DNA of 40,444 nt, from IMG/VR virus record IMGVR_UViG_3300001533_001008, positions 1-40,444 of that record. One strand, written 5' to 3'. Position 1 is the first letter of the stretch. Every line of letters starts with the position of its first letter. Below the pieces are notes generated by a model. It worked only from the letters and a program-made list of their open reading frames with translations. It was not told where the DNA came from and ran no database searches. The position numbers were made by a program, and so were the translations under genes. Source of the DNA: a virus. Positions 522-30,256 of this stretch are shown here, one piece after another.

Positions 522-558
522 CGCAGGGGGCTGGGCTTTGAGGCCCAGCCCCCCTGCG
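522..558. repeat. Hairpin between decoration protein and zinc-ribbon gene (TTTGAG/CTCAAA loop)
   Basis: Arms 522-536 and 543-558 pair over 15 bp with one extra C, around a 6-base loop (CTCAAA on the transcribed minus strand). It starts a few bases after the decoration-gene stop. No T-tract follows on either strand, so it looks more like an mRNA 3'-stabilising or processing hairpin than an intrinsic terminator. It belongs to the set of CTCAA-loop hairpins described under findings. Confidence 0.8.
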
Positions 559-559
559 G

Positions 560-1177
560 TTAAAGGGCCTTGATGAACGCCTTGACAGAACCCGAACTGG
601 TGGTAGCAATGGTTGCACCATTGTTCAGGTTGCCAAGAGGAACCACATGTGGAAGACCCAGGAGCGGTGACAACGGGATCGTTATAGACGTAGCTGTACC
701 CAGGTTAGTCACATGGTACGTGGCCCCTGGAAGATTCGCTACAGCCATGTATCCCGCATCCGTTGCCGCACCCGTAGCGTTACCCAACGCATTCACAGGA
801 ATGAGCCGAGCATTCGTGAAGGATGCGGCAGTACGGTTAGTAACCGTGAAAAAGTTGGTGTTGAAGACAAGCGAATTAGTCGCATTGCCCGTAACAACAA
901 CTCCCGGATGATACCCGTACACCTGTACCACCCCGTAATTACCCGCAGGAATCTCGGACCCTGCAACGATTCCGGCAAACAGAAGCGGGTTAGGCTGCTG
1001 AGTTGCAGCCGTAACCGCAAACGTTACGCCGTATCCGTTACCAGTCCCGGTACCTGCTTCAGTAATCGGGAAGTTCCAATGCACCGCATGTCCTACAGGC
1101 ATCGTACCCGTGAACTCGTTCTTCACCGCAATGAAGACTTGCTCAGGAGACGCCCTGTTGATCTGCTTCATCCACAT
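560..1177 (-). CDS. Head decoration/stabilisation protein (paralogue of 37598-38191)
   Basis: 205 residues, ATG at 1175-1177 with an excellent AGGAGGT site 5 bases upstream, 15 bp after the major capsid gene. The start (KQINRASPEQVFIAVKNEF) and end (KAFIKAL) match the protein at 37598-38191 (INRLVPEQVYISVVN and CKVFIRAL). Both share an internal FAG(I/V)V...G.(V/L)VQV(Y/W)G segment. The Gly/Ala/Thr-rich, beta-strand character, position after the capsid gene and strong ribosome site suggest an abundant capsid-surface protein. The function is inferred from position and composition; a short head fibre is an alternative. Confidence 0.75.
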   Translation of the reverse strand: MWMKQINRASPEQVFIAVKNEFTGTMPVGHAVHWNFPITEAGTGTGNGYGVTFAVTAATQQPNPLLFAGIVAGSEIPAGNYGVVQVYGYHPGVVVTGNATNSLVFNTNFFTVTNRTAASFTNARLIPVNALGNATGAATDAGYMAVANLPGATYHVTNLGTATSITIPLSPLLGLPHVVPLGNLNNGATIATTSSGSVKAFIKAL

Positions 1178-1192
1178 AGAGCACCTCCTCTC

Positions 1193-2473
1193 TTAGGTTA
1201 CGTACCCACCAGAACCGACGTTAGCGAAGGAAATCACACCCTGCTTGGAACGGTTAGAGATACAGAGGTTCCCCATCCAGAGAATCTGGGCAGTGGAAGC
1301 ATCCTGGTTCTCAGGCCGTACAAAAGGAGTAGTGATGAAATCCGTCTTAGCGTCAACGACAAGTTCGAGGTACTTAGAGTTCAAGAAGTACATAGGTGCT
1401 GTAAGATCCGTGGTACTTGGAGTAGCATGAACCCCAGTAGTGATGCCATGATCCAGCATCATCTTGCACTGCTTGAACTGCAAGTTCATAAACCCGGCAT
1501 CTCCGAGTTTCGTATCCGTGAACCGCTCAAGGGGCATGAGGCAGGCCTCGTACGCCTCAAACAGGTGCCTACCGCAAAGGATCAGATCGGGACGATCATT
1601 ACCATCGGTAAGCAGGTTGTTCATGGTACGCATGGCAGACACGAGATTCTGGTAGGAATTGCCGTCATAGTCTCCGGCAGCAACCAGAACACCGCTGGGC
1701 TGACGGGGACCAGGCACACCACCAACTGCACCACGCTGGATCCGCTCAAAGCCTGGAATAGTCATGTTCATCCACCAGGGATTCACATACTGACTCCAAG
1801 CCCAGCTATCCCAGTCGTAGGTGTTCGCACCAGCAGCACTGGTGTTTGTGGTAACAGAGATCTTACCAACCTCATGGGTTACCGCATCGGTGGAGTCCGG
1901 ATTTCCACACTGCCCATATGCAGAACGAACCAAGTGGTCCAGAGAGTTGATCGACTTCGAGGTACCATCAGTAGAGTCCACAGCAGAACCACCATGGGAG
2001 TCCACAGAACAGGAGTCACCAGAACAGAAGGTCACACCCCTATTGCCATGAATTCCATGGAGAGTATCGTTGAGGAACCACTGAATAGACTTCTCAGCCT
2101 GCATCACCTTGGCACGGAAGAGATCAATGAGCTGGTGCTCACCGGAATTGAGGCGGCGGTCCTTCCTGGACATGGAAATGGAAACAGCAAGCTGCTTCCA
2201 GTCAAACTTCGCAGTGGTAATACCCTTCTGCGGAGTAATATCCAGAAGGTCATAGTCCGAGTACTCAGTGATAGTTGTGTTCTCACCATAGAGCACAGGA
2301 ACTACAATGTATAAACCGCCGTTCTGTGTCCTCTTCCTACCACCCTGTTGCAGCCAGTAATACAGAGGAAGAGAACCGAAGATGTTATCCTCCAGTTTCT
2401 TCTTATAATGACGCAGGGTCGTAGACAAGACATCATCCATTACGTCAGTAATGGAAACATCAGATACAGCCAT
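1193..2473 (-). CDS. Major capsid protein
   Basis: 426 residues, ATG preceded by GAGGTG. It directly follows the scaffold and precedes the decoration protein, the canonical place for the major capsid. An N-terminal helical stretch is followed by a long beta-rich body with capsid-like features: an early IVVPV strand with a YSDYDLLDITPQ loop, a mid SAMRTMNNLLTDG helix, then PDLILCGRHLFEAYEACL, and a C-terminal segment on membrane-free strands (MYFLNSKYLELVVDAKTDF). The order of genes makes this call secure. The HK97-like fold is established for tailed-phage capsids and assumed here. Confidence 0.9.
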   Translation of the reverse strand: MAVSDVSITDVMDDVLSTTLRHYKKKLEDNIFGSLPLYYWLQQGGRKRTQNGGLYIVVPVLYGENTTITEYSDYDLLDITPQKGITTAKFDWKQLAVSISMSRKDRRLNSGEHQLIDLFRAKVMQAEKSIQWFLNDTLHGIHGNRGVTFCSGDSCSVDSHGGSAVDSTDGTSKSINSLDHLVRSAYGQCGNPDSTDAVTHEVGKISVTTNTSAAGANTYDWDSWAWSQYVNPWWMNMTIPGFERIQRGAVGGVPGPRQPSGVLVAAGDYDGNSYQNLVSAMRTMNNLLTDGNDRPDLILCGRHLFEAYEACLMPLERFTDTKLGDAGFMNLQFKQCKMMLDHGITTGVHATPSTTDLTAPMYFLNSKYLELVVDAKTDFITTPFVRPENQDASTAQILWMGNLCISNRSKQGVISFANVGSGGYVT

Positions 2474-2485
2474 CTTTCACCTCAG

Positions 2486-3310
2486 TTAGGAGTACTTAAG
2501 TCCTTTTTCTCTGAAAGCCAAACGAAGCGCATCATCTATGTTGCTGACTTTGGTACTAGAATTCTTGGAGTTGGCAGGAAGAAACTTGCCTGCACCACGC
2601 TCCACGGATCTACTACTTTTGGCAGCAGTACGCTTCTTGGTCTCAGCAACATCGTACACGGCCCAGCGATAGGCGCCTTCCAGATCCAGTAACTTATTCG
2701 TGCTCCAAGCTTTCTCCATCCCTGAACGGTATTTTTCCCAGTCAGGGTGTTTGCGCTTAAATTCTTCCAGAGCCTTTTCGGCCTGTGCGCGCATCCTATG
2801 TTCGGAAAGCTCTCGCTGAATAGGCTCAACAGCCTTCTTCACCTTTCTGTCCAGCAGCTCTGACTCCGCCTCTTCTCCATCCAGGTCATCAGGGATCTCT
2901 CCATCGTTCAGCCTTTCCAAGTACCGAACAACCCGAGGATTTTCGAGCAGGCCATCAAGAATCCTGGCCTTGTAACCTGCCTCTTCGATGTTCCCCGCGT
3001 TTCCAAGAAGCTGCTCCAGCTTTCTTTCCTTCTCAGCCAGAGCTTGAGTCTTCCTGGTCAGGGCACCCTGCATCTCCCGGAATGTAGGCCGTAACTCCGC
3101 AGGAACCTTGGTTGCGTCATAGAAGGTTTCCTCTTCAGGACCGCCCTCCGCATCCTCGGACTCCTCCGTGCCTTCATCTTCCTCAGACTCTATGCCCAAG
3201 GCAGACAAAAGGTCTTCCATCTCCTCCGAACTGTCTTCCCCACCAGACTCCTCAAAACCCTGTTCAGGAGTTTCGTCGTCTATCCGGCTGGAATCCTGTT
3301 CACCCGACAT
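2486..3310 (-). CDS. Capsid scaffold protein
   Basis: 274 residues. The first ~70 are extremely acidic (runs of Glu, Asp and Ser). A heptad-like coiled-coil stretch (ALTRKTQALAEKERKLEQL, about 85-105) comes next, followed by charged helices and a basic C-terminal domain ending in a short helix (DDALRLAFREKGL). Acidic N-terminus, helical middle, basic capsid-binding C-terminus and a location immediately upstream of the capsid gene are typical of T7-like and P22-like scaffolds. RBS GGGAGG lies within the end of the preceding gene. No protease motif is visible. Confidence 0.85.
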   Translation of the reverse strand: MSGEQDSSRIDDETPEQGFEESGGEDSSEEMEDLLSALGIESEEDEGTEESEDAEGGPEEETFYDATKVPAELRPTFREMQGALTRKTQALAEKERKLEQLLGNAGNIEEAGYKARILDGLLENPRVVRYLERLNDGEIPDDLDGEEAESELLDRKVKKAVEPIQRELSEHRMRAQAEKALEEFKRKHPDWEKYRSGMEKAWSTNKLLDLEGAYRWAVYDVAETKKRTAAKSSRSVERGAGKFLPANSKNSSTKVSNIDDALRLAFREKGLKYS

Positions 3311-3311
3311 C

Positions 3312-3979: not shown

Positions 3980-3981
3980 CC

Positions 3982-8010: not shown

Positions 8011-8024
8011 TACTTACCCTTTCA

Positions 8025-8076
8025 TGTAGAGTTCCTCTACAGGAAGCCCCAGAGCCTTTAGGGCTCTGGGGCTTCC
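8025..8076 (-). promoter_or_regulatory. Leader of the leftward operon: two stacked hairpins
   Basis: On the minus strand a 15-bp perfect stem (arms 8042-8056 and 8062-8076, 5-base loop) is followed at once by a 7-bp stem with a 3-base GAA loop (8025-8041), then the ribosome site and start of the small terminase gene. Neither is followed by a T-tract. They sit in the 5' leader of the first late gene and may protect or process the mRNA or tune translation. An AT-rich stretch (8085-8110) lies just upstream, but no convincing -35/-10 pair could be found there. Confidence 0.6.
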
Positions 8077-8204
8077 ATGTAGATACTATATACTATATAA
8101 TAGTAATATAGGGGGGTGCAGGGGGGATTGCAGGGTGCCTCAGCCGGGGTAAGTCCCTGAAATATCTCGGGGTAGCAAAAAATTTGGTACTGCGAAAAAT
8201 CTGG

Positions 8205-8224
8205 TTGACAAGGTGCCGTATGGG
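8205..8224 (+). promoter_or_regulatory. TTGACA element resembling the early promoter, no -10
   Basis: TTGACAAGGTGCC then GTATGG resembles the early promoter at 8624 (TTGACAAGCGGTACC then GTATGG), but the bases where TATACT stands in the early promoter read GACCCA here. It could be a degenerate duplicate or an operator for a protein that also covers the early promoter. Activity as a promoter is doubtful. Confidence 0.3.
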
Positions 8225-8277: not shown

Positions 8278-8400
8278 ATGAGTAAAGAAACAGAAAAAGG
8301 AGGTTCTCGTCGGGGGGTGTCGGCCTCCCCCCAAAGCGTCTCCGTGGAGCGAAGCGGAACGGGAGGGAAGCGGCTGAGCGAAGCGAAGACCTTTGTATAA
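8278..8400 (+). CDS. Possible 40-codon ORF in the control region
   Basis: ATG at 8278 preceded by GGGAGG (4-base gap) opens a frame of 40 codons, Ser/Gly/Lys/Arg-rich (MSKETEKGGSRRG...), ending at a TAA that lies inside the first copy of the ACCTTTGTATAAGC repeat. Two of the GCGAAGC motifs lie within it. The ribosome site is good, but the codons overlap non-coding structure and no promoter is evident. It may be fortuitous or a leader peptide. Confidence 0.25.
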   Translation: MSKETEKGGSRRGVSASPQSVSVERSGTGGKRLSEAKTFV

Positions 8401-8508
8401 GCTGCGTGCAACGCTAGATTATACAACGAGCGAAGCGAAGTTGTACAGTGTGAAGCGAAGCGAAACACCTTTGTATAAGCGGTGGACGAGCGAAGCGAAG
8501 TCCGCCGC
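8343..8508. repeat. Five GCGAAGC-loop units with differing stems (candidate origin or regulatory array)
   Basis: GCGAAGC occurs at 8349, 8378, 8430, 8455 and 8490. In three units the loop GAGCGAAGCGAA (or GAAGCGAAGCGAA) is flanked by complementary arms that differ between units. These are TACAAC/GTTGTA (8422-8445), GTGT/ACAC (8448-8468) and a 9-bp GCGGTGGAC/GTCCGCCGC stem with one G-T pair (8479-8508). A fourth unit (8343-8361) has bulged arms; the one at 8378 has none. d(GCGAAGC) is known to form an exceptionally stable DNA mini-hairpin. Constant loops with changing stems argue for selected structure. Confidence 0.7.
8389..8480 (+). repeat. 14-bp direct repeat ACCTTTGTATAAGC, two copies
   Basis: The sequence occurs exactly at 8389-8402 and 8467-8480, 78 bp apart, each just downstream of a GCGAAGCGAA motif. 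It contains TATAA but no matching -35 box at 16-18 bp. It may be a binding site for an initiator or regulator. Confidence 0.65.
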
Positions 8509-8623
8509 GAAACGTATTTTCCGCCTCTCTCCTATCGTATAGCATGGGCGTTGTGGGTTTCTGAGGGGTTTCCGCGCCGTGCGTCTGGCCGGCTACTAGC
8601 CGCGGACTGCGCATTTACATCCC

Positions 8624-8749: not shown

Positions 8750-9178
8750 ATGCGCAAGAGTGCGCGTGGTCGATCTCTAGGGTGGGCAGTCGCGATTCTC
8801 CAGCGCCTCGGGTGGCGAGTGGGTTGTCCGCTAGTCAATGAGGCGCTGGAGATTGTCAGGTGCGCTGGACTGCATTGGACCCCGCCTGATCGCTCTAGAC
8901 CGGATTCTCCGGCAGTGGGGCGGTTGCAGCGGGTCCAATCGGGCCGTGATCCTTTACCGTCGGGTAAGGGCTCTCGGTTCCCTAAGCCAGTTTGGTCCTG
9001 GGATTCGCAGGCTGCCAAGCGCCCGCGCAAGCCGCGCAAGCCGGAAACGTTCACTCCTGTGAAGCTGCCTGCCGGCAATGATGCCGCGTTACTGGCAATG
9101 TTCACGGAGAGTCGATCGTCCCGGGTACGCGCTACGTCAGGTCCGCTAGTCGGGCAAGACGTTGTGCGGGGAACGTGA
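8750..9178 (+). CDS. First early gene product, basic protein of unknown function
   Basis: 142 residues, ATG 8750 preceded by GGGGGTGG, the first gene after the early promoter. It is strongly basic with Pro/Arg/Lys-rich stretches (KRPRKPRKPETF). The first ~40 residues could be helical (LGWAVAILQRLGWRVGCPLVNEALEIV). Position and charge would suit a host-takeover or nucleic-acid-binding protein, but no family is recognised. A competing frame inside it (8838-9062) looks less likely. A 9-bp GCAA-loop hairpin follows its stop. Confidence 0.55.
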   Translation: MRKSARGRSLGWAVAILQRLGWRVGCPLVNEALEIVRCAGLHWTPPDRSRPDSPAVGRLQRVQSGRDPLPSGKGSRFPKPVWSWDSQAAKRPRKPRKPETFTPVKLPAGNDAALLAMFTESRSSRVRATSGPLVGQDVVRGT

Positions 9179-9186
9179 TCGACCCT

Positions 9187-9220
9187 GGGGGAAGCGCAAG
9201 CTTCCCCCGTTTGTTCCCTC
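9187..9220 (+). terminator. Hairpin with GCAA tetraloop and weak T-rich tail
   Basis: GGGGGAAGC (9187-9195) pairs with GCTTCCCCC (9200-9208) around GCAA, followed by GTTTGTTCCC. This could be a partial or leaky terminator, or a processing hairpin, between the first and second early genes. Confidence 0.45.
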
Positions 9221-9240
9221 GAGGGGGTAAGGGGGTAGCT

Positions 9241-9462
9241 ATGAAAGTCCGGGTAGACACGATCAACCGAATTGCCGGGATTCTTGAGGAACGCGACGGC
9301 ATGGATACGGAAGTTGCACGGCAGATAGTCAAGTCTGCACTCCGATCGGCTATCGTTGCAATGAGTCTGGGCGATTTCGAGCGACCGGAAGAAATCTGGA
9401 TGGAAGAAACTGGCTTGGAAGTTGACTTTCTCATGGAGTTAGTCGCGGGAATCGTGATGTAA
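9241..9462 (+). CDS. Small early protein, function unknown
   Basis: 73 residues from the ATG at 9241, with AAGGGGG and a short spacer upstream. An in-frame ATG at 9175 exists but overlaps the preceding hairpin and has no ribosome site. The product is helical and acidic (TINRIAGILEERDGMDTEVARQIVKSAL segment). No family recognised. A perfect 10-bp hairpin (9468-9491) follows directly after its stop. Confidence 0.7.
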   Translation: MKVRVDTINRIAGILEERDGMDTEVARQIVKSALRSAIVAMSLGDFERPEEIWMEETGLEVDFLMELVAGIVM

Positions 9463-9520: not shown

Positions 9521-9571
9521 TCGAACTCGAACTCCAACTCGAACTCGAACACCAACTCGAACTCGAACACC
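9521..9571. repeat. Tandem TCGAAC hexamers in 18-bp superrepeats
   Basis: Six perfect TCGAAC units lie in the order two, spacer TCCAAC, two, spacer ACCAAC, two, then ACC. This is an 18-bp period repeated almost three times. It sits in the leader of the RadC-like gene. Read in that gene's frame it would encode Leu-Glu repeats (FELELQLELEH), so it is either an N-terminal extension or, more likely, an untranslated iteron-like binding array. Confidence 0.8.
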
Positions 9572-9591
9572 AGCAAGGGGGTAGTTTTGGG

Positions 9592-10525: not shown

Positions 10526-10552
10526 GGGACCCGGCCTTCGTGGCCGGGTCCC
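10526..10552. repeat. 11-bp hairpin between early genes
   Basis: GGGACCCGGCC (10526-10536) pairs with 10542-10552 around TTCGT. No T-tract follows (TAGACAAAGGG), so a stabilising or processing role is more likely than termination. Confidence 0.65.
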
Positions 10553-10843: not shown

Positions 10844-11248
10844 GTGAGTACGCAGCAACCGGATCCGAACAAGCTGATGTATCTCGGACTAAACCAGACA
10901 CAGGCACTCGCACTGTGGGCTGTCATGTTTGGCAACCTGAGCGACTCATACCTGGATGGCTTAGTCCCCGAAAACATCCATCTTGTCACATCCCGCAGAG
11001 ACCGGATTCAGCTAGTCGTAGCAAACCTGCTGTGTAACGAGTGGGACATATTCCCCATGGGCTTCCAACCCGTATGGGATAAGGAGAATGAGGAGAAGCT
11101 TCTTGCTCTCTATCTCCCCACGAGATACCCAAACCAGACTACTCTTGTTTACTCCTTCGTAGATGCGAAGGGGTGGGGTGGTTGGCAGGTAGGAGAGTAC
11201 ACAGATATCGTGAATCGACTGGCAACCTGTGGATTCGGAGTAAAGTAG
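10844..11248 (+). CDS. Early protein, function unknown
   Basis: 134 residues from GTG 10844 after CCCAAGGAGG. The product is mixed alpha/beta and acidic, with an internal TSRRDRIQLVVANLLCNEW helix and a C-terminal SFVDAKGWGGWQVGEY stretch. The in-frame ATG at 10781 lies within the preceding gene's end and has no ribosome site. No family recognised. The next gene begins one base after its stop. Confidence 0.65.
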   Translation: MSTQQPDPNKLMYLGLNQTQALALWAVMFGNLSDSYLDGLVPENIHLVTSRRDRIQLVVANLLCNEWDIFPMGFQPVWDKENEEKLLALYLPTRYPNQTTLVYSFVDAKGWGGWQVGEYTDIVNRLATCGFGVK

Positions 11249-12429: not shown

Positions 12430-12504
12430 CTGTACCTCTTCAAGGAGATGATTCAGAACTACCAGGTTCTGTTCGAGTCCATGGAACTGATTCTCAGCCC
12501 CTAG
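12430..12504 (+). CDS. Possible 24-codon leader peptide or mini-gene
   Basis: A CCCAAGGAG site like those of the preceding genes lies 9 bases before a CTG that opens 24 codons (LYLFKEMIQNYQVLFESMEL then a stop). Only a non-standard CTG start fits, so this may be a decayed gene or a regulatory mini-ORF ahead of the terminator-like hairpin. Confidence 0.25.
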   Translation: MYLFKEMIQNYQVLFESMELILSP

Positions 12505-12567: not shown

Positions 12568-12599
12568 GGCTCTGGTGACCTCCAGGGGCCTGTTTTGTT
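12568..12599 (+). terminator. Probable intrinsic terminator
   Basis: GGCTCTGG (12568-12575) pairs with CCAGGGGCC (12582-12590) with one bulge, followed by TGTTTTGTT. This would end or attenuate transcription of the first early block before the HTH gene. The region 12505-12697 carries no gene and is otherwise rich in short hairpins. Confidence 0.5.
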
Positions 12600-12619
12600 C
12601 CCCCACCCCCGGCGAAAAC

Positions 12620-12646
12620 GAGGGCAGGGCTTGAGGCCCTGCCCTC
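12620..12646. repeat. 11-bp hairpin with TTGAG loop upstream of HTH gene
   Basis: GAGGGCAGGGC (12620-12630) and 12636-12646 pair perfectly around TTGAG. Its core CAGGGC-TTGAG-GCCCTG is the reverse complement of the core of the hairpin at 13071-13115, so the two bracket the HTH gene in opposite orientation. No T-tract follows. Confidence 0.8.
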
Positions 12647-12697: not shown

Positions 12698-13072
12698 GTG
12701 TATTGTCTTGTAACTCCAGAGTTTAGGGAGCTTCTCCAGAAGGCATGGGAAAAGTCTGCGTACCAGACGGTTGGAGACCTGGAACGAATCCTGAGTCTGT
12801 CTCCAACAACTATTGCCCGGATACTCCGGAAGAAGGTAAGTCGCATACGATCGGATCGTATGGATACCCTTCGCACCTGGATTCAGAATACACTGGGTAT
12901 GGCTGAGATGGAGATGCCTGCTAAGACCTACTTTGGAGGAAAGGTAGGAGGAAACAAGTCACCCGGGGTATCTAAGTCCTATAGGAAGAGGAACATCCCC
13001 ATGGAAGTAAAGCTTCATCCGGGGAGGAAGCTGGTACTCGAAACCAAGGATTATACTATAACCATATACTAG
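12698..13072 (+). CDS. Helix-turn-helix DNA-binding protein
   Basis: 124 residues from GTG 12698, with TAAGGAGG 5-6 bases upstream. Residues about 20-62 (TVGDLERILSLSPTTIARIL plus SDRMDTLRTWIQ) match an XRE/Cro-type HTH with its following helices. The C-terminal ~45 residues are basic and probably unstructured (KSYRKRN). It is a likely transcription regulator in the early unit. The gene is flanked by two hairpins sharing one core in inverse orientation and is preceded by a terminator-like structure, so it may be regulated on its own or move as a cassette. Confidence 0.75.
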   Translation: MYCLVTPEFRELLQKAWEKSAYQTVGDLERILSLSPTTIARILRKKVSRIRSDRMDTLRTWIQNTLGMAEMEMPAKTYFGGKVGGNKSPGVSKSYRKRNIPMEVKLHPGRKLVLETKDYTITIY

Positions 13073-13115
13073 AGATAAGGGACCCAGGGCCTCAAGCCCT
13101 GGGTCCCTTATCTCT
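13071..13115. repeat. 20-bp perfect hairpin with CTCAA loop after HTH gene
   Basis: Arms 13071-13090 and 13096-13115 are perfectly complementary over 20 bp around CTCAA, the longest perfect stem in the window. The left arm begins at the last two bases of the HTH stop codon. The following bases (TGGAATC) are not a T-tract. Confidence 0.9.
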
Positions 13116-14643: not shown

Positions 14644-16953
14644 ATGCCTTGCCACAAGCTTTGCAAGTTACATAAAACCTGTAAGACGGTTTGTGTACCT
14701 GCCACTCCCGCAGTAATGACTGATGACAGAAAGGACATAATGATCCTGGGGGAAGCACCCGGGAGAGAGGAGGATGTTCAGGGTATACCCTTCGTGGGTA
14801 GAACAGGACAAGCCCTGAGAGACGTACTCAAACAGACAGGTCTCCTGGATCGGGTTGTCTTCGACAACTCCGTGCGGTGTCGACCTCCGGATAATCAAAC
14901 TCCGGGAATACCTACCATCCGGGCGTGTCGTCCCAACTGGGTAGCGGAAATTGAACGAAGGAAACCCAGGGTACTGGTGTTGATGGGTGCTACTGCAATC
15001 AAGGCTTTGACGGGGGAGAAGTCTGTAAGGATCAATCAATACCGAGATCGTAAGCAGTGGGAGGAAACATTTGGAAAGCACAAGGTGACTGTGATTGCTA
15101 CGTACCATCCTGCATTCGCACTTCGAAATCCCGGGATGTGGAAATACATTGTGGACGACCTGTACCGTATCCTTGAGCCTGACTTCATGGCAAAAGAACA
15201 CATCAAGGTTACGATTGTACCCAACCTGATTCGAAAGAAGCTGCCCAAGGAGATGGCTTTTGACTTGGAAACTACGGGGCTCAACCCTTTTCTCCAGGAG
15301 GCTCGCATCCTGACAGTTGGGTGGAGTAGCTCCATGGGTATCGGGGCAGCTACAACGGACATTGCTGGTTTTGTACGGATACTGGAAGAGCATCCCAATA
15401 CCACATTGGTTGGTCATAACGTCAAGTTTGACCTGTTGTGGTTGCGGGAAAAGTTTGGGTACGTACACAAAGGCCCTATCGTAGATACCATGTCTATGGC
15501 TCACCTGCTGGACGAGAATAGACCTGCATACGCTTTGACCTACCTTTCCAGTATCTACACAGGAACGGGTGACTACGATGAAGGCATGAAAGCACAACGT
15601 AGTAACCTCTCTGCCATGGATATTCTGAAAGTACTGGAGTATAACGCAAAGGATGCTGCGGTAACCTGGATGATCTACAAGCGAATGCGGAAGGAGATTC
15701 AGGCAGAACGTCTACAGAACCTGGTATCGTTCTCGGGTGAAGTAACTCGTGCCCTGGTAAACTTGGAGCATCGAGGTATTCCAATCAGTCGTCACAAGTT
15801 GATGGCTCTGAAAAGGGCCTGTCTCAGGCAAGCACAGCAGATTGAGGAATCATTTACTGCTTGCAACCTGGGCTCTCCGGCCCAGGTTGCGGACTACCTG
15901 TACAACCACTGCAAACTGCCTGTACTGGCCCGAACAGCCTCGGGTAATCCCTCTACAAATGAAGACACCCTTACCGATCTTCTTCTCAGGGCAAACAAAA
16001 AGGTCCGAAAAGAGATTCAGTTGATTCTGGATTACCGGAAGGCTAAGAAGATTGCCGGGACCTACGTAAAGAACCTGCTGGAAAACATGGACGCTTACGG
16101 GAGGGTTCATCCTTCCTATCGACAGACTGGAACAGTGACGGGACGCCTGTCCTGTGCCAACCCCAACTTCCAGAACCTCCCAAAGGATCGTACCGGACCC
16201 AAGCAGGTTATCCGTACGGAACCCGCCTCATCCCTCGTGCTGGTTCAGGCAGACTACTCCCAGGTTGAGATGCGAATCGGTGCGATGATGTCTCAGGATC
16301 CCGTGCTACTGAAGCTTCTGCGGGACGGGGTGGATCTTCACTCCGAGACTGCACGACGTTTGCTGGGACGTGAACCCTCACCAGAGGACCGTCAGCGGGC
16401 TAAAACCATCAACTTCGGGATCTTCTATGGGATGGGTCCGGATCACCTCGCTAAGACCACAGGAATGGGTCGAGGAGAGGCCCAGCGGTTCATCCGGGAG
16501 TGGTTTTCCCTCTACCCGGGTGTTCGGAAGTGGATTGAAGAGATTCAATCCCAGATGTTGGACAGGGGGTATGTGGAATCCCTGTTTGGCAGGCGGCGAA
16601 GGCTGCCGAAGTTTGTAACCACAGTAGATGATCAGCGTCGGGCAGTGCGTCAGGCTGTCAACCACCCTGTTCAGTCTTCCGCCTCCGACCTGAATCTCAT
16701 GGCCATGTCGGTTCTTTCGGAATCCTTACGGAATACCCGGGAAGAGTTCGCATGGCCGATTGGTACTGTTCACGACTCACTGGTTTTTGAGTGTCAGAAA
16801 GATTCTCTACACATTTTGGTTGACATGATTCACGAAATCATGGAGAATCCTACTCAGCTGGCCCGTACCTACGGGTTCAACGTGAAGTTTCACGTGCCCA
16901 CACCCGTAGGTATTGAGGCTGGCCTGTCACTCGGGGACCTAAAGCAAATCTAG
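14644..16953 (+). CDS. polA: Replicative DNA polymerase: uracil-DNA glycosylase + 3'-5' exonuclease + family A polymerase
   Basis: 769 residues. Residues 1-180 are a family-4-like uracil-DNA glycosylase: N-terminal Cys residues (3, 7, 13, 17), GEAPGREED (36-44), CRPPDNQTP (79-87), Cys79 and Cys95 spaced as the Fe-S ligands, and TYHPA (153-157). Residues 200-350 are a DnaQ/Pol I-type exonuclease: DLE (207-209), GHNVKFD (257-263) and YNAKDAA (333-339). Residues 360-769 are the polymerase: TVTGRLSCANPNFQNLP (497-513), motif A DYSQVE (Asp537), O-helix KTINFGIFYG with Phe591 at the E. coli 762 position, motif C VHDS (Asp711, Ser in place of the usual Glu). The UDG-polymerase arrangement is known from phage SPO1. 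It is the replicative enzyme and all domains look intact. Confidence 0.95.
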   Translation: MPCHKLCKLHKTCKTVCVPATPAVMTDDRKDIMILGEAPGREEDVQGIPFVGRTGQALRDVLKQTGLLDRVVFDNSVRCRPPDNQTPGIPTIRACRPNWVAEIERRKPRVLVLMGATAIKALTGEKSVRINQYRDRKQWEETFGKHKVTVIATYHPAFALRNPGMWKYIVDDLYRILEPDFMAKEHIKVTIVPNLIRKKLPKEMAFDLETTGLNPFLQEARILTVGWSSSMGIGAATTDIAGFVRILEEHPNTTLVGHNVKFDLLWLREKFGYVHKGPIVDTMSMAHLLDENRPAYALTYLSSIYTGTGDYDEGMKAQRSNLSAMDILKVLEYNAKDAAVTWMIYKRMRKEIQAERLQNLVSFSGEVTRALVNLEHRGIPISRHKLMALKRACLRQAQQIEESFTACNLGSPAQVADYLYNHCKLPVLARTASGNPSTNEDTLTDLLLRANKKVRKEIQLILDYRKAKKIAGTYVKNLLENMDAYGRVHPSYRQTGTVTGRLSCANPNFQNLPKDRTGPKQVIRTEPASSLVLVQADYSQVEMRIGAMMSQDPVLLKLLRDGVDLHSETARRLLGREPSPEDRQRAKTINFGIFYGMGPDHLAKTTGMGRGEAQRFIREWFSLYPGVRKWIEEIQSQMLDRGYVESLFGRRRRLPKFVTTVDDQRRAVRQAVNHPVQSSASDLNLMAMSVLSESLRNTREEFAWPIGTVHDSLVFECQKDSLHILVDMIHEIMENPTQLARTYGFNVKFHVPTPVGIEAGLSLGDLKQI
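15863..15890. repeat. 11-bp inverted repeat within polA
   Basis: GCAACCTGGGC (15863-15873) and its complement (15880-15890) flank a 6-base loop. It lies in the thumb-region coding sequence (CNLGSPAQVA) and is not required by the protein sequence. Confidence 0.7.
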
Positions 16954-17723: not shown

Positions 17724-18638
17724 ATGACACTACAGGCATACCAGAAACACCATATCCTGAATAAGGCTATTGTTGAGCATCTGAAGTTCGAACTGGCAAG
17801 TCAGGGGAACAGCACCCACCCGTCCAGGGACTATTTCAGGGGCTCAGAGACGGATGCCTGCGCACGGAAGATCATGTATGCAAGGACCGGGCAAACCCGG
17901 TCCTTGCCTCTTGATCCTTCTGCGCAGGAGAAGATGCGGAAGGGTGACAGATACCAGGATTACATCCGGGAACTGATTCACCAAGCCACAGATTTTGATG
18001 TCGTACATGTGGAACGTCCACTCACTGGAACCTTTACAGCCAAGGATGGAACCGTCATCAAGTTATCCGGAAGGATTGACGGAGTTCTGCTTGCTCCTGT
18101 GGGTGAAAGTTCCAGGGGTACTGAGCGTGCTCTGCTTGAGGTGAAGACCACATCTCACTGGGGAATGATGGGCTTAAAGAAAGCCCAGTTCAAGGATCCG
18201 GAGCACTACACTTGGGGATACGTCCTGCAATGCCACAGATACATTGCCATGTGGAATGCGGCATTCCCGGATGAGCCCATCAGTAAGTTTTGCCTGTACG
18301 TCTATGATGTAAACGGAGACGCCTGTGAAGAGACAGACTTTCCTGCAATAGACTACTGGTACAAGTTCAATCCTAAGATCTGGGAACAGGAGGTGGAACG
18401 TCTTGCCACGATCGAAAGGCACATCCAAGCAAGCAGCCTCCCGGCAAGACACTACGCAGAAATCGACTGGCAGTGTACGGGGTGCTCCTACTTCTTCGAC
18501 TGTTGGCCGAAACGTGAACGAGTCTACGCTGCTCCTAAGCACGCTAAGAGAGTTGAAGAACTGGAGAAGGCTAAGAAACGTCGTAGTCGCAAACGTGTTT
18601 CCGGAGGAGCTGAAAGCGGTACGGGAAGCAATCGATGA
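17724..18638 (+). CDS. Cas4/RecB-like PD-(D/E)XK nuclease with Fe-S cysteines
   Basis: 304 residues, start 2 bp after the SSB stop. Nuclease motifs: SGRIDGV (Asp) and ALLEVKTTS (Glu-x-Lys), then a helix with CHRYIAMW. Four cluster-type Cys: one near residue 48 (DACARK) and CTGC plus a later Cys (SYFFDC) in the C-terminus, the layout of 4Fe-4S Cas4-family exonucleases. A role in DNA recombination or end processing during replication is likely. The C-terminus is basic (AKKRRSRKRV) and overlaps the helicase start. A perfect 12-bp inverted repeat lies inside it. Confidence 0.85.
   Translation: MTLQAYQKHHILNKAIVEHLKFELASQGNSTHPSRDYFRGSETDACARKIMYARTGQTRSLPLDPSAQEKMRKGDRYQDYIRELIHQATDFDVVHVERPLTGTFTAKDGTVIKLSGRIDGVLLAPVGESSRGTERALLEVKTTSHWGMMGLKKAQFKDPEHYTWGYVLQCHRYIAMWNAAFPDEPISKFCLYVYDVNGDACEETDFPAIDYWYKFNPKIWEQEVERLATIERHIQASSLPARHYAEIDWQCTGCSYFFDCWPKRERVYAAPKHAKRVEELEKAKKRRSRKRVSGGAESGTGSNR
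17880..17907. repeat. 12-bp perfect inverted repeat within the Cas4-like gene
   Basis: GCAAGGACCGGG (17880-17891) and its complement (17896-17907) flank CAAA. It is terminator-like in geometry but has no T-tract (CTCTTGATC follows). Confidence 0.7.
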
Positions 18639-20530: not shown

Positions 20531-21283
20531 CTGCTGCTTCAACGACTCGGTTCCAGTCAGGACCATTGCCTTTCCCTGATTTCCCGGGAAGAGTGTGATG
20601 AACTGTTTGCCCTGGCAGCAATGCTTCTCCCGGAATCTCACATCGTAGAAATAGGCTCTGCACATGGGGGTTCAACCAAGTACCTGCTTGGAGGTGCCTA
20701 CCTCTCTGCCAGCCATCTGCATTGTGTAGACCCCTGGGAACCCTGCGAGGAGCAGGTCCTCGAGGAGGACCTGCGGCTCACGGAGTTCCTGCGGTTGCTC
20801 TTCAGCGGAGCTGACAGGCTAAACCTGTTTGAGTTCAACCTACAGGCATGCTTCGGTGTGGGCAACCCTATCCTGGAGTATCTACAGACACACCAGGGTA
20901 CTTCAGAGGAGATTAGCAAAACTTGGGACTCCTCGTGGGGAATAGACATGCTGTTCATTGACGGGGATCACCGTCAGTGTAGACAGGACGTAGAGCTTTG
21001 GGTACCACATCTTCAACCTTGGGCAGTGATACTGTTTCATGATGTAGATAAGGGCGGGCTTTACGGAGTAGACAGTCCGGATAACACAGTAGCTGCATTA
21101 CTACAGAAAGGGGAGTGGAAACTTGTCGTCCAACCACGAACAGGAAAATCCATCGCAGGACTATCCAGGGATCCGGAATACTGGAGTGTACGATATCAAG
21201 ACTATCTTGATACGTATGGACCACGGGAATATCAGCGAAATCAAGGTAACTCCAGAGGACCCGGACAGCCGACTGGTAACTGA
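20531..21283 (+). CDS. Class I SAM-dependent methyltransferase-like protein (start uncertain)
   Basis: About 250 residues. Motif I (HIVEIGSAHGGSTKYLL), HLHCVDPWEP (acidic end of the second strand), and IDMLFIDGDHR with WAVILFHDV fit the small-molecule methyltransferase family (Methyltransf_24-like). AGGAGGG at 20513-20519 is a strong site but the first in-frame candidate after it is CTG 20531; a GTG at 20399 lies inside the resolvase gene. The substrate is unknown. The C-terminal tail is Pro/Gly/Asn-rich. A 10-bp inverted repeat lies at 20752-20774. Confidence 0.65.
   Translation: MLLQRLGSSQDHCLSLISREECDELFALAAMLLPESHIVEIGSAHGGSTKYLLGGAYLSASHLHCVDPWEPCEEQVLEEDLRLTEFLRLLFSGADRLNLFEFNLQACFGVGNPILEYLQTHQGTSEEISKTWDSSWGIDMLFIDGDHRQCRQDVELWVPHLQPWAVILFHDVDKGGLYGVDSPDNTVAALLQKGEWKLVVQPRTGKSIAGLSRDPEYWSVRYQDYLDTYGPREYQRNQGNSRGPGQPTGN
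20752..20774. repeat. 10-bp inverted repeat within the methyltransferase gene
   Basis: GCAGGTCCTC (20752-20761) and its complement (20765-20774) flank GAG. Extensible hairpin geometry, no T-tract. Confidence 0.55.
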
Positions 21284-21896: not shown

Positions 21897-22472
21897 ATGT
21901 GCGATTTCATTCGCAGACTCTTTCGCCGGACTCCGCCTACGCAGGCGGCTCCTCAAGAGCCGCCTGCCCCTGCGGTACTGGCGAAAGACCTGCTGTACCA
22001 GAGCAGGCAGTATGCAACCCAGCGCACCTCGGAATTCGAGGGATGCGAACTTAAGCCGTACACTTGCACAGTATCCAACAGGCTTCATATCGGGTTTGGT
22101 AGGAATATTGAAGATATGGGCATCAGTCCGGATGAGGCAGAGCGGATGCTTCATAATGACATGGATACTGCCGTAAGGGAGTTACTGGCTACCTTTCGGG
22201 AATTCGATCCGGAAAGCAGCCTATTCAATCTGAATGAGCAGCAGGTGCTGGAAGTGTACTCGAGGTTTCCAGTGTTACTGGATCTGCTATACAACCTGGG
22301 TCTAACACGTTTCCTGACCTTCAAGAAGATGATTGCTGCGATCAGGGAACAGGACTGGGTTACTGCGTCCAAGGAACTCATGGACTCCAGGTACGCACAA
22401 CAGGTACCTATACGTGCCAAGAATAATGCACGCTGGTTGCAGAAAGGGAGACCATGTTCGAATTCAGGATAG
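21897..22472 (+). CDS. T4-type lysozyme (GH24 endolysin) with non-standard active site
   Basis: 191 residues, ATG 21897 with GGGGGAAACG upstream. A Pro-rich N-terminus (about 12-30) and then a GH24 domain. Catalytic Glu48 (SEFEGCELKPY) is kept. The position of T4 Asp20 is Cys57 (YTC) and the position of T4 Thr26 is His64 (LHIGFGRN). The Cys is seen in related phage lysozymes that carry YxCTxGKLTIG; the His at the Thr position is unusual. GISPDEAERMLHNDM follows as usual. It should cleave peptidoglycan at lysis. No signal peptide, so a holin is needed. Confidence 0.88.
   Translation: MCDFIRRLFRRTPPTQAAPQEPPAPAVLAKDLLYQSRQYATQRTSEFEGCELKPYTCTVSNRLHIGFGRNIEDMGISPDEAERMLHNDMDTAVRELLATFREFDPESSLFNLNEQQVLEVYSRFPVLLDLLYNLGLTRFLTFKKMIAAIREQDWVTASKELMDSRYAQQVPIRAKNNARWLQKGRPCSNSG
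21941..21967. repeat. 11-bp hairpin with CTCAA loop within the lysozyme gene
   Basis: GCAGGCGGCTC (21941-21951) and its complement (21957-21967) flank CTCAA. It lies in the Pro-rich linker codons, where protein sequence is under weak constraint. Same loop as four other hairpins in the genome. Confidence 0.8.
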
Positions 22473-23797: not shown

Positions 23798-23867
23798 GTT
23801 ACCCTCCTTCCTTCTTTTGGCTAACTCCCGTTCCAGGGATTTCCGGAACAGGTAGAACTTCAGACGC

Positions 23868-24092: not shown

Positions 24093-24100
24093 GTGGTACC

Positions 24101-24388: not shown

Positions 24389-27300
24389 TGATCACCTCCT
24401 ATCCAATCGAACTCAGGTTGAAGTGGTTCCTTGTCTCTTCCGAAGCTCTTTCTGAGCTTCATCACATCCTTCAAGTACTTCTCGTGAAGTCTACTGATCT
24501 CAGGTGAGGTTCGATCTTTCCTGTACTCCGCCCGGGCAGCAGCCTGGTAGTTTACGGATAACTGACGCAGCAAAAAGGAAAGCTCCGCCATGGATCTATC
24601 CTTATCCAGGGGATAAGTCTTGCCGACAAACAAGCGGGCCATACGGGACACAAGATCCATTTCCTGGGGGTTGTCTACCCAGGTATGCAACTCGTTTATG
24701 GGGCGAAGACTTTTAAGCATGTGAGAAACCTTCCGTGGAGTCGGTACCCCAAGGAAAGGATCTCTCTCCCCGTGGAACAAGGAGTTCATCCGGTCGATTT
24801 GCCTTCGAGTGAAGAAATTGATATTGAATATGGACTCGAGAGGAACCTTGATAAAAGGATTCAACGAGTGCATAGACCATTGGATGGGGTTGATGATGTC
24901 ATGAACGTCCGCCAAGGGTAGCCAGTTTTTGAACATGAAGTACTCGTGCTGGCCTGTCTGCTTATTGGTGCGTATACGAAGAGGCATCTGCTCCTTCATC
25001 CAGGAATTCAAGTAGCGTTCATCCTCTACCTGTTCCCAGCCATGGAAGGAGTGAAGAGCCGATCCAAACCTGGCAACCCTACTGGGTTGAGTTATGATTG
25101 CTTCAAGCTGGAAGGGGATATTCTTCCTGCTCCAGGAGTAGAACGGAAACACATTCCGGAAGATGTGCTTTTCCCTGGGGGAAAGGTCGTAGTAGTCAAA
25201 CAGATGCTTCTTAGCAGATGTAACTGCATCCTCAATACTAATCCCCTTCCTCACCTTCTGGAGAATGTGTGCTGCACGGGTGTAGTCATCCAAAATGGCG
25301 TTGATGCGAAAACCTGTCTCCAGGTAGATGTTATTGGGGCTACCCAATCCAAGCATAAGCTTCTGGGTTTCCTTGGGGGATAGTGGTGCGATGCCACCAA
25401 CAACTTTACCCAGACCCGATTTCTTGTACGCCCGGGAAAGAACTACCTGGGGATCAAAGCTACGTAGAGACGTACCCGCCATGCGAACATGAGAAGTGAC
25501 AGCCTCCTTCAGCTGCTTTGTGCGTTCAGGTGAGATGAATCCTGTACCCCAACCACCCAGTCGATCTATTTCGGTCCAAAGCTGCCTTCCCGAGATGGTA
25601 GTACCCAACTCTGTCTGAATCTTGAAGTCCTTACCCTTTCGCAGAGCACCAAACCACTTGGCAGCATCGGTAACACCCCGGGCAGCTTCGAGAGGATTGT
25701 CGGATCCGAGATAGTAATTCCACATATTCCCGGCAAAGTTACGTGTCGCGTAACTCGGAAAGACTGCCAAGGTCCAGGATTTCCATAGATTGATTGCCTT
25801 GGAGTAGGTACCCAGGAAACCACGAAGCTCCGGATTGAGGTCTGCCTCCATCTTCTCTATACGGTTGAGCCACCTACCCGCATCCGGGTGCATGAACCAA
25901 CCCTGCATGTCTGCGTGGTCAGCAGGAACAAACCCGGCTTCCTTGGCCCACTGGGGTAGGTCATCGAAGTTATCAGCTTTCACAGACAGAAGTTTATTGG
26001 GGTCCTTGATCTCTTTGAAGAACTGATCGGAGACAATTGCCCTGTCTGCACGCATACCTCTGGCTGCTAAGAGTACGGTAGGGTCTTCCTCGAAGAAACG
26101 CTGTACCTTTCCCTTGGGAATAAACCTGCCGATACCGTGCTGGTAAACCCACTCGTTTGCCTGCTGGGCAGACATTGCAGGGATAAGCCTACCAACCATG
26201 TCGGCATCAAGTACATCCTTCTCAACCTGCTTGTGCAGAAGTTTCAGAGTCTTCATGGACATCAGCTTGCCCTTCTCCATCGCTTTCATATCTCTACGGA
26301 GAAGGCTGTACAGGTTTGTCTTGTGCTTAGATCCCGGAAATACCGAATCTGTTATCGTCCGGAGAACATCTGAGTTTTGCTTGAGTACCTCCGGATTGAT
26401 AAACCGCATCCTGCGCATCAGGAGAGAGGCATGTGTTCTGAGTGGTGGCTTACCACTGCCTGCACGACCCCGGTGACTCGTAGCCCTCCATACCGTGTCC
26501 GTAGCTTCCCGCAGGTGCGTCTTAGCTTCATCCGTCATGAGGTGAAGCACGTAGTCCTGATCATGGGAAACAAGAAGCTTCATACTTTTACCAAGTACTT
26601 CTTCTTCCATACGTAGAATGTTCAGGTACTCGGAGCGGGCGATATGGTGTATCTCCTTCATCCGGGCAATCTCGGGAGTATCCAGAGGGGAACGGGGACC
26701 AAAAGGAAGCGGGAAGTTCTTGTGAAACTTTTCCACAGCCACATCAAAGCTTGTTCTTCCTGGGACAACTACTACACGCTTCGCATCCCGGGCCATCTGC
26801 AAGCTTGGGAACTCTTCCATACTGGCTGTGATAACTTCCCGCAACTTCTTCATGGATTCGTCCAGCGGCATATTGTACTGCTTAGACAACTGCGCTGCGA
26901 AATTACGAATCTCCGGTTCCATCAACTCCGTGGTATGGCGAAATCTTGCGCCACCTCTACCCATCAAGGAGGACATCAGTCTCTTGTGCGCCCGCCACAT
27001 GGGCAAAGGTACCCCTATGGGGAAGTTGAACGTCTGGGCAATGCGCTGTGTGACAGTATCCATGGCCTTGCCCATCTGCATCATCCACTCGGTATGTGGA
27101 AGTCGATTCAGAATACGCTCAGCGGCATGTCCGCTTTGAATAAGGTCCAAACCACGAAAGAACTGAGTACCACGTATATGTATGTCCCCCGGGATATGCA
27201 GCAAGGCGCGTTGGCCGCGCCTTGCCTGCTGGGCCAGGGACAAAGCCAACTCAGGTGCCTGAGCAGCAGCAATCCCCTTGGGAGAAAGCTTGGTACCTGT

Positions 27301-27648
27301 GCGCAAAGCAGCGCGTGCAGTACCACCTGCTTGTGCCAATTTTCCCGCACGGGTAAGGCCACCCAAGCTGATGTAAGAAAGGGGGTCCAGTACCCCACCC
27401 AGGATGGAACCACCAACAGTACGCTCAAGTCCTCCTGCTTCAGGGCGCAAAGCCTGGTACAAATCCCCACCGTATACCCGGCTCAGGTTCTGCTCCTGCA
27501 ACCTTTCGTAGGCGTCCGGAGCAAGAGAGCGCATTAGGGGAATGCCCGCAGCCTGTACACCAAACCGCTCACCTGTCAGGAGAGCATCCAGGAGCTTGCC
27601 GGGTACGGACTCGCTGAATCCTGGTTTTACTTTACGGTCTACTTCCAT
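24385..27648 (-). CDS. Large internal virion (ejection) protein, 1,087 aa
   Basis: Starts 2 bp after the 868-residue gene, with GAGG upstream. It is mostly helical. Segments include a Gly-rich hydrophobic start (GSILGGVLDPLSYISLGGL), FAGNMWNYYLGSDNPLE about midway, and FPFYSWSRKNIPFQLEA near residue 850. Such patterns occur in big structural proteins of short-tailed phages encoded after the tail genes. Its position, with the lytic transglycosylase upstream, matches the T7 gp14-gp16 core-protein cluster ejected into the host. No enzymatic motif seen. A 10-bp inverted repeat lies at 27201-27225. Confidence 0.75.
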   Translation of the reverse strand: MEVDRKVKPGFSESVPGKLLDALLTGERFGVQAAGIPLMRSLAPDAYERLQEQNLSRVYGGDLYQALRPEAGGLERTVGGSILGGVLDPLSYISLGGLTRAGKLAQAGGTARAALRTGTKLSPKGIAAAQAPELALSLAQQARRGQRALLHIPGDIHIRGTQFFRGLDLIQSGHAAERILNRLPHTEWMMQMGKAMDTVTQRIAQTFNFPIGVPLPMWRAHKRLMSSLMGRGGARFRHTTELMEPEIRNFAAQLSKQYNMPLDESMKKLREVITASMEEFPSLQMARDAKRVVVVPGRTSFDVAVEKFHKNFPLPFGPRSPLDTPEIARMKEIHHIARSEYLNILRMEEEVLGKSMKLLVSHDQDYVLHLMTDEAKTHLREATDTVWRATSHRGRAGSGKPPLRTHASLLMRRMRFINPEVLKQNSDVLRTITDSVFPGSKHKTNLYSLLRRDMKAMEKGKLMSMKTLKLLHKQVEKDVLDADMVGRLIPAMSAQQANEWVYQHGIGRFIPKGKVQRFFEEDPTVLLAARGMRADRAIVSDQFFKEIKDPNKLLSVKADNFDDLPQWAKEAGFVPADHADMQGWFMHPDAGRWLNRIEKMEADLNPELRGFLGTYSKAINLWKSWTLAVFPSYATRNFAGNMWNYYLGSDNPLEAARGVTDAAKWFGALRKGKDFKIQTELGTTISGRQLWTEIDRLGGWGTGFISPERTKQLKEAVTSHVRMAGTSLRSFDPQVVLSRAYKKSGLGKVVGGIAPLSPKETQKLMLGLGSPNNIYLETGFRINAILDDYTRAAHILQKVRKGISIEDAVTSAKKHLFDYYDLSPREKHIFRNVFPFYSWSRKNIPFQLEAIITQPSRVARFGSALHSFHGWEQVEDERYLNSWMKEQMPLRIRTNKQTGQHEYFMFKNWLPLADVHDIINPIQWSMHSLNPFIKVPLESIFNINFFTRRQIDRMNSLFHGERDPFLGVPTPRKVSHMLKSLRPINELHTWVDNPQEMDLVSRMARLFVGKTYPLDKDRSMAELSFLLRQLSVNYQAAARAEYRKDRTSPEISRLHEKYLKDVMKLRKSFGRDKEPLQPEFDWIGGDQ
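27201..27225. repeat. 10-bp inverted repeat within the 1,087-aa gene
   Basis: GCAAGGCGCG (27201-27210) and its complement (27216-27225) flank TTGGC. Confidence 0.6.
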
Positions 27649-27649
27649 G

Positions 27650-30256
27650 CTACTTAGCCTCAGCCTTTACAAAGACTAAAGACTTGTCCTGCTTGGGACC
27701 CGGAATGAAGTGATATACCTTCTTGTTGCCATGGATTGTAATCACCCCGGCTTTACGCGTAATCTTAGCCCCATCCCGCTTCAAACCCTCGAGGACCATA
27801 TACGATAGCGTATCCTGGGATCTCATGTCCTTTAGCCAGGTATCCACCTTGGGAGCTACCTGCATAGCCCGAGCACCCAGCTCCATTTGTGTCCCGGGAA
27901 CCTGCTCTGCAACCTTCTTCACAGCCTTAGAGGCGTCTCGTACCGCATCCTGCCATATCGGATGTTCCCTTAGCGGGGCAGGTACCCTGTCAGTTGTACG
28001 AGCCAGTTCCAGCAGTTTCTTGGGGGATGACTTCTGGAGTGTCTGTAACTCCTGTGTCAACCGCAGCATCATGTCCGGATCAGATCTCTGAGCAAGCTGG
28101 AAGAGACGCTGAAGATCAGGGTTGGTTGCAGCAAGAGGCGTCTCCTTCAAAGGAGTTTCAGGTCTACCCTTGGGTTTGGGTTTGGGTTTGGGTACAGCTT
28201 TTTTCTTCGCCTTGGCAAGATTTACCGCAGCCCGAGTAGGTTGAAAGTCCGCCAGGGAAGCACCCTTTGGCCGTTCAGTGTAGTTCAAACTGAACTGCCC
28301 GGGTAACGCATCCGGGGATGTAGAAAGTTTGGGAGGTTTGGGTTTCGGAGGGATTTTCCCTCTGAGAACCTTCAGCTGCTTTTCCAGACCTTCGATACTA
28401 CCAGAGAGTAGTTTCTCCTCAGCTTTAGCTTCCCTCTGTAACTTCGGAGAGTAATCCAGAAGCAATGTTGCCCGGACCTTACCTCGCTGAGCCCTCAGGT
28501 CCGTGAGGTCTCTTTCCATCTCTACTATGCGTGCAGCAACATCCTCTGTTTCGGGTTTCTTTGGTTTAGATCCCTGGGAACCCTTGGACGCAGCTTTCTT
28601 GCTCTTAGCCTTCTGATACAGGTCAGCTACCTGACCCTTGGGATCTTCCTGGAGCTCCTGCTGAACAAACTTGTCAAACTTGGTACCCTTGCGAGGAACT
28701 TCCCCCTTTTCCAAACGAGCAGTGAACCCCTTAGCCTCTTTTACCCGCTTATCCACTAACTGAGTAAATTCAGACTTGGGTTTAGGTTTAGATTTGGCCT
28801 TAGCAGCCTTTGCCGCAGTCTCCAGAGGTTTAGGTTTAGGTTTGGGTACCGTCTCCTCCGGAGGCAGCCAGTAATCCATTCCCGTCTTCCCCTTGGGGGG
28901 CTTCATCCGACCTTTTACCGGATCAAACGTGAACTCCTGCTGCTGCTGCTTCGCCTCGGGTTCAGGTTTGGGTTTGGGTTTGGGTTTAGGTTTGGGTTTG
29001 GGTTCAGGTTTGGGTTTGGGTTCAGGTTTGGGTTTAGGTTTGGGTTCAGGTTTGGGTTTGGGTTCAGGTTTGGGTTTAGGTTTGGGTTCAGGTTTGGGTT
29101 TGGGTTCAGGTTTGGGTTTGGCTACCTTGGGCCGAGGCTTGGCTTTGGTTGAAGCCTGTGTAACCCGGGGTTTAGATAGTTTCGCAGTCCTCTCCATCAT
29201 ATCCACTGCCTGATCGTACTCAGAAGCAGTCAGATCTCCCTGATGGTACTTCTCCTGAGCTGCCTGCTTGGCAGACTCGAGTGGGGTCTTGGGAGTCTTA
29301 GGCCGGGACTTGGATACCCTGCGAGACTTGGCTGCATCCTTTAGATCCGCTTTCCGTAGCTCCTTAAACACCTTGTGCTCCTGCGGAACTTTGGCTCTAG
29401 CTACCCTTTGGATAACACTGGGCATGTCTGTCGGAACCTTGGATACATCTGCTGTGGTACCTATAGCACCCTGAGGAAAAGTCTGCGTCTGAACCGGAGC
29501 CCTGCCTGGGGATACAGGTTTGGGAGTAGCAGGTGAAGGACCACCCAACCACCAATTCAGTACCTCTTTTTCATCCAAGGCCCGTGTGCCCTGAAACTGG
29601 GGAGGGGGTGTGGAAGATCTGGGGGATACCATGGGGTGCATTCGAGCAGGACCCGGAGCTTGCGTCCGAACACCCATATCGCCCAGGCCTGGGGGCTTGA
29701 GGCCCCCAGGCTTGGGCGTAACCCGGGGGCGGATACCTGGCTTACCCCGTAGGAGCCTGTAGAGTCCTCCCAGAGCCTTCGAACCTACCTTCTGGATACC
29801 TGGCCAGGCAGCACCCAAAAGTAGGGACGTAGTGGGGTCCTCAGAGGCTATGGAGGGGTCAAACTGGGCGCCCAGGGTACGGGCAGGTACGGACATAGCT
29901 GCACCACCCCCACTACCCAAAGCAAGTCTGGCAACCCCGGAACCTACCCCCTTACCTAGCAGCAAGGGAAGGGCTTCCATACCACCTCGAACCACTCCAC
30001 CCATGAGTCTGTCTGTGAGGGGAATGGAGTCACTTTGACCCATGCCCCTCAGGGCCCGGAGGTAGTCCTCTGTGCGGTACACTTGACCCTTGGCCTGCTC
30101 CTCAGCCTCCATCCAAGCAAGCAACTCAGGGTTGGTACGAGCCAGACGCGCCTTTGCTTCCCTAAGCTCGGCATCCCCTGTTCTGCGAATGAAGTCGAAA
30201 CTCCTGCCTCTTTCGGGAGGTGCCGGAGCAGGGGGTTCTATCGGGTAGAGAGCCAT
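27650..30256 (-). CDS. 868-aa virion protein with Lys-Pro/Glu-Pro repeat tract
   Basis: ATG 30254-30256 with GAGGTGTTGTC upstream, overlapping the transglycosylase gene by 19 bp. N-terminal ~160 residues include a hydrophobic Gly/Ala-rich segment ([20 protein letters not shown]). Residues about 379-432 are a dense (KP)n/(EP) repeat, with shorter KPKP tracts near 470-490 and 690-700. Charged helices follow. PK/PE repeats form stiff extended rods, as in TonB. A role in spanning a compartment during DNA ejection is plausible inference. The repeat-coding DNA is telomere-like (TTTGGG units). Confidence 0.7.
28958..29120. repeat. Degenerate GGTTTGGGTT(T/C)A repeat encoding the Pro-Lys/Glu tract
   Basis: On the + strand the sequence is an almost uninterrupted series of GGTTTGGG, GGTTTAGG and GGTTCAGG units over about 160 bp. 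The minus strand encodes Lys-Pro and Glu-Pro dipeptides. Four or more runs of GGG separated by TTT make the + strand a G-quadruplex candidate. Copy number is likely to be unstable. Confidence 0.9.
29681..29717. repeat. 16-bp hairpin with TTGAG loop within the 868-aa gene
   Basis: GCCCAGGCCTGGGGGC (29681-29696) pairs with 29702-29717, with one G-T pair, around TTGAG. Same loop and GGGC/GCCC closing pairs as the hairpins at 522, 12620 and 13071. Confidence 0.85.

Follow-up and report, generated by a model that had tools for sequence, protein, structure and literature searches.

Hairpins with a shared CTCAA/TTGAG loop at gene ends and within genes of a singleton phage genome

Five hairpins with the same CTCAA/TTGAG loop occur in one phage genome, some within genes and some between them, which raises the question of whether a single kind of element, acting in RNA or in DNA, underlies them all. 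The window, that is, the whole stretch of 40,444 nucleotides analyzed here (IMG/VR record IMGVR_UViG_3300001533_001008), begins and ends with identical direct terminal repeats of 96 nt each (1-96 and 40349-40444). Although the record is classed as linear, its identical termini suggest that it represents a complete genome of about 40,348 bp. The structural genes run leftward and the replication genes rightward. No DNA match to the first 25 kb of the window was found among 50,697 phages, and no relatives were found in IMG/VR via the terminase, the polymerase, or the 1087-aa protein, so the phage is a singleton; its capsid protein has distant relatives, with only 27-49% identity. An Rfam search gave no matches.

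All five hairpins described in an earlier note on this DNA were confirmed, as was their location partly in genes (for lysozyme and an 868-aa protein) and partly at gene ends (table 1). The hairpin at 522-558, whose plus-strand loop reads TTTGAG (CTCAAA on the minus strand), begins directly past the stop codon of gene 560-1177 and ends ahead of the Shine-Dalgarno sequence of the following gene (start ~503). The major capsid gene lies one gene before it, and relatives also have hairpins in this place. The hairpin at 13071-13115 overlaps the TAG stop of gene 12698-13072, with the next Shine-Dalgarno sequence downstream, and shares a 17-nt core, inverted, with 12620-12646; the pair flanks one gene. 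A GC-rich hairpin just past a gene is thus found at 522-558 and 13071-13115 but not at 21941 or 29681. Near 12620-12646, a terminator-like T-run occurs upstream only (12570-12600). Farther upstream lies a possible 18-aa leader peptide (MIQNYQVLFESMELILSP, 12448-12504) with a ribosome-binding site, giving the order possible leader peptide, terminator-like region, hairpin, and gene 12698-13072. Within the lysozyme gene, 21941-21967 falls in the N-terminal extension, outside the conserved domain, and is flanked by the near-concentric arms TCTTTCGCC/GGCGAAAGA (21919-21988). The loop at 29681-29717 reads TTGAG on the plus strand; its mismatch is G-T, which is A.C in the coding sense, and the stem reaches 17 bp if the next pair is counted.

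Table 1. Positions and structures of hairpins in the window
Position	Strand	Feature	Stem	Loop	Context
522..558	(-)	Gene-end hairpin	15 bp, one bulged C	CUCAAA (sense)	Without T-tract
12620..12646	(+)	Hairpin	11 bp	UUGAG (sense)	Untranslated region ahead of gene 12698-13072
13071..13115	(+)	Gene-end hairpin	20 bp, perfect	CUCAA (sense)	
21941..21967	(+)	Hairpin within lysozyme gene	11 bp	CUCAA	Codons 15-24
29681..29717	(-)	Hairpin within 868-aa gene	16 bp, one mismatch	CUCAA	Pro/Gly-rich stretch
8042..8076	(-)	Hairpin	15 bp, perfect	CTAAA (minus), similar loop	Leader of terminase small-subunit gene
10526..10552	(+)	Gene-end hairpin	11 bp	UUCGU	Stop-to-next-gene gap, without T-tract
15863..15890	(+)	Hairpin within polA-type DNA polymerase gene	11 bp, perfect		Ungapped conserved motif CNLGSPAQVA
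17880..17907	(+)	Hairpin within gene 17724-18638	12 bp, perfect		
20752..20774	(+)	Hairpin within methyltransferase-like gene	10 bp, perfect		
27201..27225	(-)	Hairpin within 1087-aa gene	10 bp, perfect		

The closing sequence GGGC-TTGAG-GCCC had been ascribed to four of the five. It is exact in three (at 12627, 13087, and 29693) and carries one extra T in 522-558, while 21941 lacks the GGGC core and has only the loop in common (GGCTC-CTCAA-GAGCC). Beyond 4-6 bp from the loop, the stem sequences diverge. Read in the coding sense, the roughly 73 pairs of the five hairpins include no G.U, and one mismatch is A.C; in that sense, too, no full stem is directly followed by a T-run. The stems of the CTCAA/TTGAG subset are 78% GC, whereas other in-gene hairpins reach 66% and longer-spaced repeats 55%. 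The 13-nt core has no more degenerate copies in the window than expected by chance.

The number of hairpins was compared with a computed expectation by counting perfect hairpins with a stem of at least 10 bp and a loop of 3-8 nt. We found 15 in the window versus 0.1-0.45 per dinucleotide shuffle. Their density is 3.7 per 10 kb; a set of 20 relatives has 0.73, and bacterial stretches have 0.83. Eight are in genes, where shuffling of synonymous codons gives 0.21 (at most 2 in 300 shuffles). The distribution of stem lengths is also unlike that of the relatives, with 15 stems of at least 10 bp versus 7 of 8-9 bp in the window and 47 versus 227 in the relatives (P 8e-7). Among pentaloop hairpins, the CTCAA/TTGAG loop tops 4 of the 8 whose stem reaches 10 bp or more (P = 1.4e-6) and none of the 156 with a stem of 4-7 bp. 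Around the 77 copies of this pentamer, pairing extends over either 0-3 bp or 10-20 bp, with none intermediate. Perfect repeats with spacers of 15-60 nt are over-represented as well, and the excess stops past 60 nt. Both the sharing of the loop and the number of hairpins are far above chance.

About ten more hairpins of equal strength but with different loops, absent from the earlier note, are present in the genome (e.g., 8042-8076, 10526-10552, 15863-15890, and 17880-17907). The stem end GCA[AG]...[CT]TGC is common to 5 of 16 hairpins. On both sides of 8042-8076 there are TCTACA/TGTAGA arms (8013-8083), with TGTAGAG-TTC-CTCTACA as an alternative fold; judging from these complementarities, an attenuator-like choice of folds can form in the terminase small-subunit leader. 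The non-coding divergent region 8335-8515 holds an array of GAGCGAAGCGAAG (8376, 8428, and 8488) and AGCGAAGCG (five copies), in which several copies have differing short complementary arms, making a second set with constant loop and variable stem. The 13-mer of this array is absent from the 20 relatives. GCGAAGC is an exceptionally stable DNA mini-hairpin. Iteron-like repeats, TCGAACTCGAAC(T/A)CCAAC, lie at 9521-9574 between gene 9175-9462 and a radC-like gene.

If a stem is selected as RNA, the mismatches remaining in it, read in the coding sense, should be G.U and not A.C. When hairpins of several phages were pooled, with small counts and genes called mechanically, those after stops had 12 G.U versus 1 A.C, and those in genes 28 versus 29 (Fisher P 0.005). 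Given the G.U excess after stops and its lack within genes, the gene-end hairpins, as a pooled class, act as RNA and the in-gene ones do not. The proposal that the hairpins are RNA elements is supported for the gene ends, on evidence from the class, and RNA selection on the in-gene hairpins is unsupported by their near-equal count.

The perfection of the stems may reflect another process. Perfect and one-mismatch stems number 15:5 in the window and 47:118 in the relatives (P 7e-5), and this preponderance of perfect over near-perfect stems fits template switching that would homogenize the arms of inverted repeats. Both the perfecting of short inverted repeats within genes and the inversion of their spacers are documented effects of template switching (PMC8604942, PMC8794818), which has also been proposed as the cause of the "binary" perfectness of coding palindromes in Nematomorpha mitochondria (PMC6649704). 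Two of its expected marks were seen here: perfect arms with few one-mismatch forms, and short spacers with an excess that fades with distance. An origin by insertion was rejected for the polymerase-gene hairpin at 15863-15890, because it is located in an ungapped conserved motif.

Strong hairpins at gene ends are found in other phages. In capsid-related phages, one commonly lies right after the gene for the capsid protein; a TTTTGTT tail often follows it and is in some cases missing. A pattern scan for GGGGGC-TTGAG-GCCCCC, the core of 29681, found seven other viral contigs, and the stems extended to 8-11 bp in 5 of 7, versus 0 of 5 with a control loop of the same composition (Fisher P 0.028). 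Each of these phages has the core in a single copy. In two unrelated phages (G024 and G021), it lies past a stop, with CTCAA as the sense loop and no T-tract; T-tracts accompany it in L240 (CTCAA sense) and L241 (TTGAG sense). It had been argued that the lack of T-tracts leaves intrinsic termination unable to explain the hairpins. This was only half right: the five indeed lack T-tracts, but the same loop has them in L240 and L241, and among the post-capsid hairpins of relatives some have a T-tract and others do not. Exact copies of the core GGGCTTGAGGCCC were not found among the 20 relatives. The sequence CAGGGCTTGAGGCCCTG had 14 viral and 96 bacterial matches in the collections, versus 0 viral matches for the control loop; the stems at these matches seldom extend, so they are mostly coding chance. 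Two of the other phages have recurrent hairpins of their own. The unrelated 44-kb contig G024 (L250-L252) has 36 perfect hairpins with stems of 9 bp or more, many directly after stop codons. Its recurrent loops are CTCGA, which tops ACGT stems four times if one CTAGA is included, and TTCAGG/CCTGAA, which is found repeatedly. The capsid-related phage G012 (L216-L217) has hairpins at 11087, 12290, and 13539, about 1.2 kb apart, that share the stem AAGTGGACAA/TTGTCCACTT and carry CTA/CTG loops.

From the directly observed excess, loop sharing, post-stop position, pooled G.U contrast, and perfect stems, we infer, with a probability of about one half, that two layers are superimposed, transcript hairpins at gene ends and DNA-level inverted repeats within genes. 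The former would comprise 522-558, 13071-13115, and probably 12620-12646. They would be hairpins of the intrinsic-terminator type without a U-tract, folding in the mRNA downstream of a stop and upstream of the next ribosome-binding site and most likely serving to cap and protect mRNA 3' ends, or else causing pausing or weak termination. Several phages would reuse CUCAA/UUGAG as the loop at gene ends, with constraint on the loop and closing pairs, and pairing alone needed in the outer stem. Besides 21941-21967 and 29681-29717, the in-gene layer would include six hairpins whose loops differ; the arms of all these may have been equalized by polymerase template switching (quasipalindrome correction), and they would be tolerated wherever the protein permits. 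Several findings speak against this division. The GGGC-CTCAA-GCCC core also occurs within a gene at 29681, which it leaves unexplained; the loop at 12620 has the opposite orientation in the coding sense; and some 73 pairs without G.U in the five hairpins are unusual for stems selected as RNA. Template switching predicts no common loop, and the loop of the two in-gene copies is not explained by it.

A rival reading is a recognition element. A phage protein might bind the constant loop and the first four closing pairs (GGGC-CTCAA-GCCC) at all five sites, in an extruded DNA hairpin or in the transcript, with the variable outer stem merely presenting the loop. The constant loop on variable, perfectly paired, GC-rich stems agrees with this, as do the all-or-none stem lengths around CTCAA and the 17-nt core on either side of the gene between 12620 and 13071. 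We nevertheless regard it as rather unlikely, given the absence of exact core copies from the relatives and the single copies in other phages, which are more in keeping with a terminator than with a dispersed site. A candidate binder is the 124-aa protein whose gene lies between 12620 and 13071; it has only a sub-threshold helix-turn-helix match, and a homologue search found none in phages and no firm family. A still more doubtful version combines loop recognition with template switching: a phage protein would read GGGC-CUCAA-GCCC on any outer stem, dispersed in and between genes, as a structural code for transcript processing, replication, or packaging, and template switching would keep the stems perfect. 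On the other hand, every hairpin could come from template switching, the core having spread by short ectopic copying without any function. The perfect stems, the excess within conserved coding motifs and among longer-spaced inverted repeats, and loops in both orientations, as spacer inversion would give (PMC8604942), all speak for such an origin, but it leaves the identical loop and GC-rich stems unexplained, and the gene-end class bears an RNA signature; we consider it unlikely, slightly more so than protein binding at all five sites. Small mobile repeats had also been suggested. They would be palindromic elements, like those of Rickettsia, inserted in tolerant linkers and in the gaps separating genes, and the in-gene CTCAA copies do lie in a Pro/Gly-rich stretch and an N-terminal extension. 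This suggestion is very improbable and found no support: the stems and flanks are unrelated, degenerate copies are lacking, the polymerase hairpin was not inserted, and no target-site duplications, encoded mover, or multi-copy relatives were found.

Compared with known systems, the hairpins resemble intrinsic (Rho-independent) phage terminators in the GC-rich perfect stem right after a stop, the stable short loop, and, for the class, mismatches that are G.U and not A.C; they differ in that all five sites lack a U-tract and two copies are within genes. Phage T4 has intercistronic C(UUCG)G hairpins. As in T4, several intergenic hairpins per genome share one loop on differing stems, but here the loop is CUCAA/UUGAG, the stems are longer, and copies also lie within genes. 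A pentaloop hairpin with a constant loop recalls lambda-type boxB and other RNA operator hairpins; however, CUCAA is not GNRA-like, the stems are 11-20 bp, the sites are dispersed, and no antiterminator gene was identified; these features lend no support to a boxB reading. Arms that are short-spaced and perfect within conserved coding sequence, a scarcity of near-perfect forms between perfect and absent, and loops in either orientation are features shared with template-switch repeats (PMC8604942, PMC8794818, PMC6649704), although the Nematomorpha palindromes average 43 bp (PMC6649704) and the arms here are 10-13 bp with a shared loop sequence.

These comparisons separate look-alike hairpins into those at gene ends, which bear an RNA signature, and those within genes, which resemble products of DNA copying. 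The G.U/A.C contrast that divides them can serve as a test in any phage genome at little cost. Both this phage and G024 carry a heavy load of perfect hairpins with recurring loops, and the idea of template switching is testable on siblings. The gene-end hairpins look like ordinary transcript-end hairpins, and the in-gene ones look like by-products of DNA copying and not like a new type of element.
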